Of a stretch of DNA of 64,000 nt, positions 3,873-57,350 are shown one piece after another. Below the pieces are notes generated by a model, which saw nothing but the letters and a program-made list of their open reading frames with translations, searched no databases and was not told the origin of the DNA. Every line of letters starts with the position of its first letter. Within the stretch, counting starts at the first letter, position 1. The position numbers and the translations under genes were made by a program. The DNA lies in NCBI RefSeq assembly GCF_900102785.1, contig NZ_FNGC01000012.1, positions 19,985-83,984 on the forward strand, in the 5' to 3' direction. This DNA comes from Arthrobacter sp. ok362 (lineage in GTDB: Bacteria; Actinomycetota; Actinomycetes; Actinomycetales; Micrococcaceae).

Positions 3873-3943
3873 TGGCTTCCTCCCGCCGTCCGCTCGAAGC
3901 CGACCTTCGTTCCGTCGACCAAGATTTGGTATCCGATCATCAT
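3869..3943 (-). CDS. Possible short leader ORF coupled to the M1 peptidase gene
   Basis: A 24-codon ORF (tandem ATG codons at 3943 and 3940, product beginning MMIGYQILVDG) has AAAGG just upstream and ends in a TGA that overlaps the peptidase ATG as ATGA. The geometry suggests translational coupling. It has no recognisable homologue and may be a chance ORF or the remnant of a longer gene. Confidence 0.3.
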   Translation of the reverse strand: MMIGYQILVDGTKVGFERTAGGSQ

Positions 3944-4127
3944 GGGCCTTTCTCGGGGCCCCGGGGGGTGAGCGTCTCGCCCGCCTGAAATGGCTTCGAC
4001 TCGACGCCCGAAGAATAACGACCTCGGCCTGGGAAGTAACGACCACGCCCCCAACACAGTTGTGGAATGTCGCCCATAATCCCCACAGCAACTTTGGAAA
4101 ACCTTGGCACCCATCTCCGGCGACGTG
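3944..4127. promoter_or_regulatory. Non-coding stretch with a 21-bp-spaced direct repeat
   Basis: AATAACGACC (4014-4023) and AGTAACGACC (4035-4044) are direct repeats about two helical turns apart, upstream of the M1 peptidase on its template side. This could be a tandem regulator site for that gene. The rest of the stretch holds no gene I can support. Confidence 0.25.
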
Positions 4128-53013: not shown

Positions 53014-54228
53014 TTAGACTTTTGGATCTCCCGGATCTCCCGGATCGCCCTGTCCGACGGCGCTGCCGGCATCGCCGGACCTGCCGCCGGCCTTTGCGGG
53101 CAGCGCGAAAGTCCTCGCCGCCCGTGACCCGGCGACGGCGCTCGCGGCTATGGTGACCAGTGCGCCCACCAGGAGGGCCGCGGCCTCGCCAGGAAGCAGA
53201 ACCTGAAGCTGCGTGCCGATGCTCGCGGCCGCCACCGGCACACCGAGCTGGGCCGCAGACAACACTCCGAGGGGCAGCGGAAGACCCAGGAACACCAGGC
53301 CGGCGTGCGTCAGCAGAGTCCCTACTCCCAGGGCCACACCGAGGGCAATCATGTCCGGATGCCCGGCCAAGTCCTTGAGCGTCAGTGAGGCGCCCAGCCA
53401 GACGAAGAACAGCGGCGCCAGGAAGCCGTCGCTGAGGGCGAACAGTTGCCGGGCCAGGCGCCTGGGTTCGCCGACCGCAGCCATCACAAGGCCGAAGGAA
53501 AAGCCCGCCAGCATCACCGACACATTGCTGAACGTCGCCACGGCGGCCAGGGCGAAAAGTACGGCCAGCTGGATCCTCAACTCCAGGGCGAACTTGCGCT
53601 CTTCCGAGAGCCGGTGCACGCGCCCGCGGATGCCTCTGTCCTCCAGCCAGCGCAAGCCGACGTAGAGCACCACCGCGCAGCCGGTCACCGTGAGTACACC
53701 AAGCGCCGCGCGGCCCGCGTGCGGCGGATCCACGAGGATCGGCAGCGCCACAATGCAGGCTGTGTCGGCGATTGCCACCTGCGCGGTCATGGCGACGACG
53801 TCGGGTCCGCCCAAGCGCAGGGAATCGATGATCGGAAGGACCAAGGCGGCCGAGGATGATGCCAGCAGCACGACGTAGAGCGGAGCATGTCCAGTGCCGA
53901 AGAGCAGGCCGATGCCTGTTCCGACTGCCACCGCAGCCGCCGCGGCCGCCGTGGCCCGGCTGGCGCCTTTGCCAAGGGCGGAGCGGATCTGCGGATCCCG
54001 CACGGGAACATGGGTCCCGGCCACAAACATCATCAGTGCAAACCCGACGTTGGCCAGCAGGGTAAACGTCGGATCGGACGGGTCCACTAAGCCCAGGCCC
54101 GACCGCCCGATCACGATGCCGGCCAGCAGTTCGCCCATCATTACCGGCAGACGCCAGCGCGCCGACAGTGCCAGCAGCGGGCCGGCCAAAGAGACGACGG
54201 CGATGAGCGCCAGGGAGAGGAATGTCAC
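53014..54228 (-). CDS. Cation:proton antiporter (CPA2 / Na+-H+ exchanger type)
   Basis: The 404-residue membrane protein has about 12 helices with CPA2 features: PVMMGELLAGIVIGRSGLGLV, LANVGFALMMFVAGTHV, and AQVAIADTACIVALPIL. There is no C-terminal TrkA-N/RCK domain; instead a ~30-residue Gly/Asp/Pro tail. It would exchange Na+ or K+ for H+. Its start overlaps the stop of the upstream 92-residue protein gene. Confidence 0.85.
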   Translation of the reverse strand: MTFLSLALIAVVSLAGPLLALSARWRLPVMMGELLAGIVIGRSGLGLVDPSDPTFTLLANVGFALMMFVAGTHVPVRDPQIRSALGKGASRATAAAAAAVAVGTGIGLLFGTGHAPLYVVLLASSSAALVLPIIDSLRLGGPDVVAMTAQVAIADTACIVALPILVDPPHAGRAALGVLTVTGCAVVLYVGLRWLEDRGIRGRVHRLSEERKFALELRIQLAVLFALAAVATFSNVSVMLAGFSFGLVMAAVGEPRRLARQLFALSDGFLAPLFFVWLGASLTLKDLAGHPDMIALGVALGVGTLLTHAGLVFLGLPLPLGVLSAAQLGVPVAAASIGTQLQVLLPGEAAALLVGALVTIAASAVAGSRAARTFALPAKAGGRSGDAGSAVGQGDPGDPGDPKV

Positions 54229-54599: not shown

Positions 54600-54616
54600 G
54601 TTACCTGAATGTGACT
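54600..54616. promoter_or_regulatory. GTTACC-N5-GTGACT, candidate MtrA box upstream of the NlpC/P60 gene
   Basis: The two hexamers are 11 bp apart, as in the repeat at 52138, and sit immediately upstream of a likely -35 element. In Corynebacterium and Streptomyces MtrA controls NlpC/P60 cell-wall hydrolase genes through paired sites of this kind, which fits the gene downstream. Confidence 0.5.
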
Positions 54617-54617
54617 T

Positions 54618-54647
54618 TTGCATGCGGTTCGCGTTACGGTGGATAAG
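54618..54647 (+). promoter_or_regulatory. Candidate promoter of the riboswitch-NlpC/P60 transcript
   Basis: TTGCAT (54618-54623) and GATAAG (54642-54647) are separated by 18 bp. They lie just after the MtrA-like box and about 35 bp before the first riboswitch helix. Confidence 0.4.
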
Positions 54648-54679
54648 TGCCTGTTGTCTCCGATACGGGCGCTCCCCAG

Positions 54680-54874
54680 CCGATTGCCTAACTCTGCCGC
54701 GGCCCGGGGGTAACTCGCATCAACGACCGGCAGAGACGGGGAAACCACTTTTGGCCTGCTGCTTACGCAGGTCTTGGGGTGAAGCCGCACGGTGCCCGCA
54801 ACGACGGGCCCGGGAGTGTGGCCGGGTGACTCCCATCCGAATCCGACAGCTCACCTCGCAGGCATTGGGAGAGG
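54680..54874 (+). ncRNA. c-di-AMP riboswitch (ydaO-yuaA class)
   Basis: The leader has the conserved blocks of the ydaO riboswitch in order: GGGGAAACCA (54739-54748), TTGGGGTGAA (54774-54783), then CCGAATCCGACAGCTCACCT and CGCAGGC (54837-54863), with AGAGG close behind. A P1 helix can form between TGCCT (54685-54689) and AGGCA (54860-54864). It ends about 9 nt before the NlpC/P60 start. In Actinobacteria this class is common ahead of cell-wall hydrolase and rpf genes and turns expression off when c-di-AMP is high. Confidence 0.85.
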
Positions 54875-54882
54875 CTACATCC

Positions 54883-55584
54883 ATGTCTTCAATCAATACT
54901 TTTGCGCGCCATGCCGCCGTCCTCGCCGCCGCATCCGGCCTGGTCCTCACCAGCGGAATGGCAGCCAACGCAGCCGCAGCACCGGCACAGCGCGACTCCG
55001 CTCCGGCGTCCAAAGTGGACGTCAAGGGACTGGTCAGCGCTCCCGTCAGGGCCGATTCAAGTGTCAAGATCAGCTTTGCCCGCCCCGCGGTAGCTACCGT
55101 CGCGGCGCCGGCTCCCGCCGCAGCGCCGGCCGCGGCGCCCGCCGCGGCGCCTGCCGCAGCACCCAAGGCAACCGTGAAGGTGCAGGCCGCTCCGGCCGCA
55201 GCACCCAAGGCAACCGTGAAGGTGCAGGCCGCTCCGGCAGCAGCGCCTGCCGCGGTGCCCGCCGCCGGCGGACGCAACGCCATCATGCTCTCGGCCGCTT
55301 ACAGCCAGCTGGGCATCACCCAGGACTGCACCGCGATGGTGGAAAAGGCCCTTGGCGCCGCGGGTAAGCCCGTCGGTGACATCGGTCCCCGGGCATTCCT
55401 TGGCCTGGGAACCGTCGTGGCGACCCCGAAGCCCGGCGACATGGTGGTCCAGTCCGGTCACGTTGGCATCTACGCCGGCAACGGCCAGGTGGTCAGTGGC
55501 GGGATGAACGGCACCAACCAGACGATCGTCCACCCGCTGTCCTGGCTGACCGCGACCGGCGGCGTGACCTTCGTCCGCGCCTAA
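54883..55584 (+). CDS. Secreted NlpC/P60-like peptidoglycan hydrolase
   Basis: The 233-residue protein has a signal peptide (residues 1-32), an Ala/Pro-rich linker with a duplicated PKATVKVQAAPA unit (about 75-128), and a C-terminal papain-like domain with C149 (GITQDCTAMV) and H193 (VQSGHVGIYAGN), the Cys/His pair of NlpC/P60 hydrolases. It should cut peptide stems in peptidoglycan. ATG 54883 has GGGAGAGG upstream within the riboswitch 3' edge; the longer ORF to 54466 is not used. Control by c-di-AMP and probably MtrA is indicated. Confidence 0.88.
   Translation: MSSINTFARHAAVLAAASGLVLTSGMAANAAAAPAQRDSAPASKVDVKGLVSAPVRADSSVKISFARPAVATVAAPAPAAAPAAAPAAAPAAAPKATVKVQAAPAAAPKATVKVQAAPAAAPAAVPAAGGRNAIMLSAAYSQLGITQDCTAMVEKALGAAGKPVGDIGPRAFLGLGTVVATPKPGDMVVQSGHVGIYAGNGQVVSGGMNGTNQTIVHPLSWLTATGGVTFVRA
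55153..55236 (+). repeat. 42-bp tandem duplication in the NlpC/P60 linker
   Basis: Two adjacent identical 42-bp copies (55153-55194, 55195-55236) encode 14 residues each, AAPKATVKVQAAPA. Perfect DNA identity suggests a recent slippage event and a linker of variable length. Confidence 0.8.
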
Positions 55585-55675: not shown

Positions 55676-56680
55676 TCAGGGATTTCCGCTCCGGGCCAGC
55701 GGAAGCGTCAATTTCATGACCGTTCCCTCGGCACCCGTCGCGGCCACCGCGACAGTGCCGCCGGCAGCGACGGCGATCTCCCGAACTAAAGCCAGGCCGA
55801 TGCCAAAGCTCCGCTGTCCCTGTGAACCGTCAGCGCTGGCGGTCCGCACGAAGCGGTCAAAGATCCGGGCCTGATCGACGCCGGTGATTCCGGTCCCCGT
55901 GTCCGACACCGAGATGACGGCGCGGCTGTGCTCGATCGAAGTCGTAATGGACACATGGCCGCCCGTAGGCGTGTGGGCAAGGGCGTTGTCCGCCAGGGCC
56001 AGCACGGCACGGCGCAGCGCATTCTTCTCGATCCGGGCCAGCGGCCGGGCATCGGCCACGAAATCCAGGCGCACCTCACGCTGGTCCGCGACCAGTTGGA
56101 GGCTCCCGGCGACGCTGGCGGCGGCGTCGGCAAGGTCGGCCGGCGGTGCTGAACTGTCCGGGGCTTGCGCGGTTGCCGCGAGGAGCAGTTCGTTGACAAT
56201 CCCGGTCAGCGTCGCTGCGTCCTCCCGGATCCGGGCAAGGTCTTGGCCTTGCCTGGAGCCGGGCACGGTGTTGCGCTGGGCAAGCTGGATCCTGGTGTCC
56301 AGGATGGTCAAGGGCGTGCGCAATTCGTGGCTCGCGTCCTGGACAAAGCGCCGTTGCCTGGCCAAGGCATCTCCGAGGGGACGGATGGCGCTGCGCGCGC
56401 TGAGCCACCCGACGATGCCGGCCAGCAAGATTCCCGCCACCCCGGCGATGACCATGGCTTCGAGGACATCTTTGGAATCCAAGTACGCGTAGGCAGTCCC
56501 GGCCGCCGCCGAGCCCGGCACTTCGGGATGGGCCAGTTGATTCATGAGGAAAAGCGCCGTGGCGGCGAGCAGCCCGAGAACCATGACCGCGCACGCGGCG
56601 CTGATCCGCAACGCGACCTTGAGCGAGGCCTTGCGCAGGATGGAGTGGTCCGGGTTTCCGGCGGTCCCGCCGCTACTCAT
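55676..56680 (-). CDS. Sensor histidine kinase
   Basis: The 334-residue protein has two membrane helices (about 24-47 and 73-93) with a short extracellular loop, a HAMP-like linker, the phosphoacceptor H118 (FVQDASHELRTPLTI), and an ATPase domain with N, G1 (VSDTGTGI) and G2 (GIGLALV) boxes. It pairs with the response regulator gene just upstream; start and stop overlap by 8 nt. ATG 56680 is chosen on that basis. The short sensor loop suggests sensing within or close to the membrane. Confidence 0.9.
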   Translation of the reverse strand: MSSGGTAGNPDHSILRKASLKVALRISAACAVMVLGLLAATALFLMNQLAHPEVPGSAAAGTAYAYLDSKDVLEAMVIAGVAGILLAGIVGWLSARSAIRPLGDALARQRRFVQDASHELRTPLTILDTRIQLAQRNTVPGSRQGQDLARIREDAATLTGIVNELLLAATAQAPDSSAPPADLADAAASVAGSLQLVADQREVRLDFVADARPLARIEKNALRRAVLALADNALAHTPTGGHVSITTSIEHSRAVISVSDTGTGITGVDQARIFDRFVRTASADGSQGQRSFGIGLALVREIAVAAGGTVAVAATGAEGTVMKLTLPLARSGNP

Positions 56681-57350
56681 GAGCATCGCCGATCTGGTAA
56701 CCGACGCCGTGCACCGTGCGGATGACGGCCTTGGAGATTTTCCGGCGCAGGTGATGAACATAGGTATCGATCACGCCGGGCTGATCCGAGGCGTGGAAGT
56801 ACGCCGTGAGGAGCTCGTCCCGGGTGAAGACGCGGTCGGGTTCCGCGGCCAGGGCTGCGAGCAGTTGGCCTTCTTTTGCGGTCAGCGACACCGTGAGCCC
56901 GTAGACGGACCGGACGGAGCGCCGCGTCGGATCCAGTTCCCAGTCCCCGATCATCACCCGTGCCGGGGCCGGAGAAGGGAAGGTGCGCGTCAGTGCGCGC
57001 AGGCGTGCTGCCAGTTCGCCGGCGTCGAACGGCTTGGTCATGTAATCGTTGGAACCGGCATCCAGGCCCCTGACCTTTTGGTCGGCATCGCCCAGCGCGG
57101 TCAGGATCAGGATGGGCGTGGCAATGCCTTTCGACCGCAAAGCCGCGATGAGGGCGATGCCGTCCATCACAGGCAGCCCGCGGTCGATCACCATGACATC
57201 CCAGGCCCCGGTGAGCCCGTGGTGAAGGCCATCACGGCCGTTGGTGACCAACTGGACCCGGTAATCCGGGTCCAGGAGCTCGGCGATGAGCGGTCCCAGG
57301 ACGGCGTCGTCCTCGACGAGCAGCAGGGACGGGCGGTCAGCGGTAGTCAT
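56673..57350 (-). CDS. OmpR/PhoB family response regulator
   Basis: The 225-residue protein has a receiver domain with acidic pocket (LVEDD), phospho-acceptor D56 (VMVIDRGLPVMDG) and K106 (TKPF), then a winged-helix DNA-binding domain (about 128-222, VFTRDELLTAYFH and VDTYVHHLRRKISK-like). It is in one operon with PAP2, DedA and the kinase, so the membrane-lipid enzymes are plausible targets or sensors. Confidence 0.92.
   Translation of the reverse strand: MTTADRPSLLLVEDDAVLGPLIAELLDPDYRVQLVTNGRDGLHHGLTGAWDVMVIDRGLPVMDGIALIAALRSKGIATPILILTALGDADQKVRGLDAGSNDYMTKPFDAGELAARLRALTRTFPSPAPARVMIGDWELDPTRRSVRSVYGLTVSLTAKEGQLLAALAAEPDRVFTRDELLTAYFHASDQPGVIDTYVHHLRRKISKAVIRTVHGVGYQIGDAHE

Follow-up and report, generated by a model that had tools for sequence, protein, structure and literature searches.

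The segment 54600–54882 of the window, by which we mean the whole 64-kb stretch of DNA analysed, probably controls the gene of a secreted peptidoglycan peptidase of the NlpC/P60 type in two layers: MtrA would act on the promoter and a c-di-AMP riboswitch on translation. Read from 5' to 3', it contains a direct repeat, a -10-like hexamer, a small hairpin and an RF00379 aptamer with a Shine-Dalgarno (SD)-like 3' end, followed directly by the start codon ATG at 54883:

54600–54616, + strand: MtrA-like direct repeat GTTACC-TGAAT-GTGACT with an 11-bp period, in agreement with the published MtrA consensus
54611–54616, + strand: second half-site of the repeat, GTGACT, in the -35 position as judged from its placement relative to TACGGT
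54635–54640, + strand: predicted -10-like hexamer TACGGT, after an 18-bp gap behind the repeat
54647–54672, + strand: 5' hairpin in the interval between promoter and aptamer (predicted fold)
54675–54878, + strand: c-di-AMP (ydaO) riboswitch aptamer, RF00379 (covariance model, 58.7 bits)
54685–54688, + strand: 5' strand of the closing helix P1, UGCC (Rfam alignment)
54861–54864, + strand: 3' strand of the closing helix P1, GGCA (Rfam alignment)
54867–54874, + strand: SD-like GGGAGAGG, 2 nt after P1 and inside the 3' end of the aptamer
54883–55584, + strand: secreted NlpC/P60-like peptidase of 233 aa (homologues, profile and fold matches)

The 11-bp-spaced GTTACC/GTGACT repeat claimed in the initial annotation is present. 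The promoter claimed there stood in part: a -35/-10-like pair with TACGGT can be recognized, but it has no separate -35. Since the half-site GTGACT itself occupies the -35 position, box and -35 are one element rather than two. A hairpin resembling that at 54647–54672 was also seen by eye in another locus (L025).

The search with the ydaO model, which had been named beforehand as the refuting test, returned RF00379 over the full model (positions 1–134 of 134; E 4.8e-11) with 58.7 bits, the gathering score being 38, in keeping with the earlier claim of a full ydaO-class riboswitch. Nothing else in the window reaches the gathering score of an Rfam family. Only 4 nt lie between the end of the match and the ATG, and the riboswitch is thus situated in the 5' leader on the strand of the peptidase gene. 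The folding energy of the leader compared with shuffles gave no signal (z -0.53), which is evidence neither way. The 4.71-Mb genome from which the window comes contains four RF00379 riboswitches: two lie upstream of genes for NlpC/P60-like proteins, one upstream of an M23 peptidase gene and one upstream of a gene whose product has no Pfam match.

An SD-like match was found in all 68 leaders examined in the genus, and in 66 of them the first open start-codon candidate follows 1–7 nt past the end of the model, while a run of six T (T6) was seen in none of the 68 within the 90 nt examined. As SD and start codon abut the aptamer and T6 is missing, hardly any step other than translation is open to the switch. 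We infer from this arrangement that the c-di-AMP layer would be a translational OFF switch. An action on transcription, through a terminator or Rho, would follow the example of Streptomyces rpfA, where c-di-AMP is reported to cause premature termination (PMC10117811). However, the abutting aptamer, SD and start codon leave little room for a terminator, the missing T6 points in the same direction, and the mRNA level of the nlpC gene of C. glutamicum is reported to stay unchanged (PMC9960051), which together make a transcriptional switch quite improbable here.

The gene behind this leader had been called NlpC/P60, and this assignment is supported by its relatives, despite the 233-aa protein alone scoring only 16.7 bits against the Pfam NlpC/P60 cut-off of 23. 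Ten of the 11 members of an alignment made up of the window protein and ten homologues match NlpC/P60 at E 0.01 or better (best 8.4e-10), and the profile built from the 11 proteins finds NlpC/P60 structures with a best E of 3.9e-7. In the predicted model, residues 131–233 form a domain with pLDDT block means of 86–96, the rest of the chain being of low confidence (whole-model mean 64.7). In the fold search, every PDB match with an E-value of 0.001 or lower (11 in all) is an NlpC/P60-type hydrolase, with 8er5 first at E 1.9e-4. Homologues, profile search and fold search thus support an NlpC/P60-like peptidase, for which cleavage of peptidoglycan is predicted. Cys149 and His193 are invariant in 11 of 11 aligned proteins and, by analogy with the family, are presumably catalytic. 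Its neighbours on the two sides are a Na+/H+ exchanger-type gene at 53014–54228 (- strand) and a convergent two-component pair at 55676–57350 (- strand), the hydrolase gene lying between them. Exchanger and kinase are retained in one other genome (G019, L066), and no such match was seen beside the loci of the other homologues.

The conservation of the box at riboswitch promoters is not due to chance. The pattern GTTAYN6GTGACW occurs twice in the 4.71-Mb genome, both times just upstream of a riboswitch, and the backward pattern once. Exact copies of the extended motif GTKAYCNNAATGTGACW occur three times in 4.71 Mb, at a different one of the four riboswitch promoters each time. No site has a single mismatch and 12 have two, compared with 5 in all for the backward control. 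In this genome, the set of best-conserved MtrA-like boxes nearly matches that of the c-di-AMP riboswitches. In 25 genomes of the same genus, 77 strict boxes were counted, 60 of which are located 55–94 nt upstream of a c-di-AMP riboswitch, and all 60 stand on the riboswitch strand. Away from riboswitches there were 17 strict boxes versus 56 for the backward control pattern. The 14 non-genus genomes of the same set contained nine boxes, one of them upstream of a listed riboswitch.

Counted from the side of the RNA, 60 of 116 genus riboswitches possess a strict box, a further 49 score 7–8 of 8 against GTNAC-N6-GTNAC, and seven fall below, the 7-of-8 class including some M23-type promoters whose score comes from a site some 45 nt ahead of the aptamer instead of the -35. 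By eye, M23-type promoters carry a weaker variant of the box, (A/G)TAACGGAATTGTTAC. A count that also requires a -10 is cleaner: the repeat (at least 6 of 8 positions) with TANNNT 15–19 nt further on was found in 67 of 68 genus riboswitch upstreams, compared with 5 of 68 for the same DNA read backwards, in a sample that combined all 56 riboswitches lacking a strict box with 12 drawn from the 60 that have it. The spacing is equally defined, as a gap of 6 gives at least 7 of 8 positions in 54 of 61 genus upstreams and ten other gaps give 2–19; the reverse-strand control of this comparison has no value, since GTNAC is palindromic. The spacer NNAAT is distinctive of the riboswitch boxes. A Crp/GlxR-like site, GTGACN4GTCAC, was considered as well and reached 9 of 10 positions in just 2 of the 61 upstreams, and hence does not explain the box.

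Judged from the sequence, MtrA is the likely regulator of this box. The published consensus is GtnAcC-n5-GTnAcn or [G/T]T[G/A]ACC-N5-GT[G/T]AC, as given in the accessible text of PMC13189361 and PMC5650626, and the test fragments of M. tuberculosis MtrA in Table 1 of PMC10609481 contain GTTATCAAATCGTTATG and GTCACCGCACAGTGACC in the same layout as here. The genome encodes a single MtrA above the curated cut-off (390.3 bits versus 300), whose DNA-binding domain shares 88% identity with its counterpart in M. tuberculosis MtrA and has the same recognition helix, DTRLVNVHVQRLR. The five other OmpR-type regulators of the genome that were compared are 31–51% identical to MtrA in this domain. A match to the consensus is nevertheless weak proof of binding, since a study of 294 MtrA-bound sequences of M. 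tuberculosis is reported to have detected no clear affinity-linked motif in them (PMC10609481). Outside the riboswitch promoters, the genome has no extended-motif site that is exact or differs by one mismatch, and across the 25 genus genomes the strict box is no commoner away from such promoters than its backward control, which would be odd for a global regulator unless the other MtrA sites are weaker.

GlnR sites are 11-bp GTnAC repeats too, and GlnR is the expected regulator near amtB-like genes. The box could therefore be bound by another OmpR-type regulator, either GlnR or a two-component regulator encoded beside the riboswitch genes, although we consider this unlikely. In three members of the order (L040, L042, L043), GTTACN6GTGACA was indeed observed near AmtB-like genes, named as such from the sequence, and these repeats are probably GlnR sites. 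In favour of a neighbouring regulator, a sensor kinase gene adjoins the C17-type riboswitch gene in the genome studied and in 9 of 13 further same-genus genomes with that gene, and the window itself contains a two-component pair (55676–57350). On the other hand, four loci (L050, L051, L057, L061) keep both box and gene with no kinase match within 1.5 kb, and control by neighbouring two-component genes was rejected as a general explanation on this ground. The recognition helices of the window's regulator and of two other neighbouring regulators also differ from that of MtrA. Furthermore, the riboswitch boxes have a spacer of their own, NNAAT, and the genes downstream encode cell-wall enzymes, the MtrA theme. 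Still less probable is a strong promoter bound by no regulator at all, composed of a -35 GTGACW and an upstream element. GTGACW does lie at -35, 15–18 bp from TANNNT, but the upstream half-site GTTAYC is fixed one helical turn away, and a general promoter would be expected before many genes, whereas this genome has the exact motif at riboswitch promoters only. MtrA thus remains the preferred regulator.

As regards the kinase genes themselves, they stand directly upstream of the C17-type riboswitch gene, and in the genome studied they form a two-component pair (L098, 2102–4522). Further loci with a kinase beside the C17-type gene are L027/L058 (one place), L049, L053, L054, L055, L060, L063, L065 and L067.

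In the mechanism that we propose, phosphorylated MtrA would bind the 11-bp repeat, the second half of which is the -35, and would thereby control transcription. As the repeat covers the -35, a bound protein would either block or replace -35 recognition. Repression through the covered -35 seems the likelier sign, by analogy with C. glutamicum, where repression of nlpC by MtrA has been reported. A bldD site of MtrA that overlaps the -10 may explain repression there, according to the accessible text of PMC5650626. At the Streptomyces mtrAB promoter, an MtrA site at -34 suggested activation (PMC13189361, accessible text), which makes the sign of the effect at the present locus less certain. The transcript would then fold into the c-di-AMP aptamer, with P1 ending 2 nt before the SD, and bound c-di-AMP would hold P1 and keep the ribosome off. 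The enzyme would accordingly be made only if both the MtrAB signal and the c-di-AMP level permit. The module is also present at the majority of the other cell-wall enzyme genes that stand under riboswitch control in the genome and the genus. The dual control proposed in the initial annotation is in line with the conserved, consensus-fitting box, the riboswitch and the fitting MtrA in the genome; however, the module is common across the genus and has a precedent in C. glutamicum.

Beyond the genus, 11 of 13 riboswitch upstreams from other families of the order carry the box at 7 of 8 positions or better, compared with 28 of 109 from other orders, where by eye it is mostly not at -35; of these 122 upstreams, 110 were obtained from 147 out-of-genus places among the riboswitches listed under a stricter filter that may miss divergent copies, with three rows already covered left aside, and 12 came from a separate search. 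Thirteen regions added later (pool then 135) lie outside the counts. A collection of 84,980 species was scanned for box plus -10, and 80 loci were examined of at least 115 stretches; the pattern was derived from this genus, so that its Arthrobacter rows are not independent. In 62 of the 80 loci, the conserved 3' core of the riboswitch, detected with a pattern that recovers 202 of 203 known riboswitches, follows 140–219 nt behind, while two loci are cut short and 16 are without it. Four non-actinobacterial loci among these 16 are taken as chance matches. The other 12 belong to Agromyces (six), Knoellia (three), Nesterenkonia, Enteractinococcus and one actinomycete MAG. Genes at ten of the 12 were tested: Pfam assigns seven of them to NlpC/P60 but matches none of the three from Knoellia, the riboswitch at the Knoellia loci standing roughly 1 kb further on. 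In G026, a genome in which RF00379 was not found, an NlpC/P60 gene (63.2 bits) follows the box GTTATCAAATCGTGACA, and in G018 a box stands before a C17-type gene with no Rfam match there up to E 10. These boxes, together with the core-less scan loci, show that box and riboswitch are separable, the box staying with a cell-wall gene in the cases at hand.

Some further arrangements were observed. A strict box without a riboswitch precedes a VanY-type carboxypeptidase gene in G029 (L041, 1501–2562). In Nesterenkonia (L270, about 3900–3950), the box and a TATAAA-like -10 stand almost directly before the NlpC/P60 gene, with little room for a leader. In family f31, which belongs to another order, one riboswitch of G068, one of G092 and two of G112 have an MtrA-like repeat GGTCACGAAAATGTATCGG about 110 nt upstream of the aptamer.

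The six Agromyces leaders contain no c-di-AMP riboswitch but instead share a conserved structured RNA, which gave no match in Rfam at gathering score (the six Agromyces loci) or at E 1 or 10 (12 loci). A model of these six RNAs found matches in 5 of 120 genomes of family f17 under a stricter filter that may miss divergent copies; f17 is taken as Microbacteriaceae because Agromyces belongs there. After the model had been rebuilt on 11 sequences, 20 of 30 f17 NlpC/P60 homologue loci were positive at E 0.001 or better and 10 negative, three of the 20 being training sequences. In the 20 positive loci, the RNA is located just upstream of the NlpC/P60 gene on the same strand. The loci with the RNA are L260, L261, L262, L314, L319, L332, L370–L374 and the 20 of the 30 loci L375–L404 (alignment A4). 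Among 198 genomes of the order, again under the stricter filter with the possible loss of divergent copies, RF00379 was detected in 115 and the new RNA in 8; the latter are all f17 genomes, whereas the RF00379 positives that were listed include none from f17. The RNA was also looked for in the genome studied here and was not found.

A pseudoknotted structure drawn by hand on 34 sequences, a set that includes training sequences and some weak matches, has 85.0% of its cells paired, compared with 46.6% or fewer when it is slid along the alignment. Its double-change cells number 168, versus 53.4 +/- 7.9 in shuffles; one pair of the counted structure (columns 21 and 34) is doubtful. Helix 7 is 96.4% paired, and its pairing is absent from the alignment model, which pairs four of the helix-7 3' columns with other columns. 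This covarying, pseudoknotted RNA before NlpC/P60 genes is a candidate for a new cis-regulatory RNA. A published survey reportedly names an RNA motif after NLPC-P60, and the Microbacteriaceae RNA might conceivably be identical to it, although it has no match in Rfam. A GTNAC-N6-GTNAC repeat at 7 of 8 positions or better occurs within 150 nt upstream in 19 of the 20 positive loci, whereas other gaps give no more than 8 of these loci and the pattern read backwards gives 1. By eye, several of these repeats stand upstream of a separate GTGACA element, and the layout is thus similar but not identical.

For the Micrococcales as a whole, MtrA box and leader RNA might form one conserved modular switch of cell-wall peptidases with an exchangeable RNA layer, a proposal to which we give an even chance. 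The RNA layer would be the c-di-AMP riboswitch in most families, that of the window among them, and, in Microbacteriaceae, the pseudoknotted RNA of about 145 nt that follows a similar repeat and ends at the SD, as a candidate riboswitch class reading c-di-AMP or another envelope signal.

Double locking of cell-wall hydrolases matters because these enzymes can kill their own cell, and the combination of MtrA with c-di-AMP offers a testable AND-type logic. In addition, further leader RNAs can be sought by means of the box, which led to the covarying Microbacteriaceae RNA. In the full texts searched, mostly from outside the subscription journals, we found no report of a genus-wide pairing of box and riboswitch, no paper on an Arthrobacter c-di-AMP riboswitch and none on a Microbacteriaceae riboswitch with NlpC.

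In comparison with known systems, the locus shares the RF00379 aptamer with B. subtilis ydaO (kimA), where, as described in the accessible text of PMC9960051, the aptamer is combined with a potassium importer gene and a terminator. Streptomyces rpfA is likewise an actinomycete cell-wall hydrolase gene behind a c-di-AMP riboswitch, but that switch is reported to work by transcription termination (PMC10117811, accessible text), and a box at -35 is no regular feature beyond the window's own order. The MtrA sites of S. coelicolor, S. venezuelae and M. tuberculosis consist of two GTnAC-type half-sites with 5–6 nt between them, as here (PMC5650626, PMC13189361 and PMC10609481, in the portions accessible). 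Whereas these known sites are described as loose and spread over many genes, the tight version found here is largely confined to riboswitch promoters.

The closest relative is nlpC (cg2402) of C. glutamicum, which, as far as the accessible text of PMC9960051 goes, is controlled by MtrA, GlxR, EsrR and the c-di-AMP riboswitch RSnlpC. MtrA reportedly represses this gene, the reporter rising slightly in an mtrAB deletion, and the riboswitch is described as an OFF switch at the level of translation. Both loci thus have an NlpC/P60 gene and a ydaO-type riboswitch in common, together with MtrA, which at the present locus is our inference; the translational OFF switching reported for C. glutamicum has its counterpart here in an SD directly behind the aptamer. 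In contrast to the GlxR control of nlpC, a Crp/GlxR-like site is not seen in most upstreams of the genus. The combination of MtrA and a c-di-AMP riboswitch at one gene is already published for C. glutamicum nlpC. The locus described here adds a probable further case, and what was the single known case becomes the usual arrangement in this genus, seen in most sampled families of the order.
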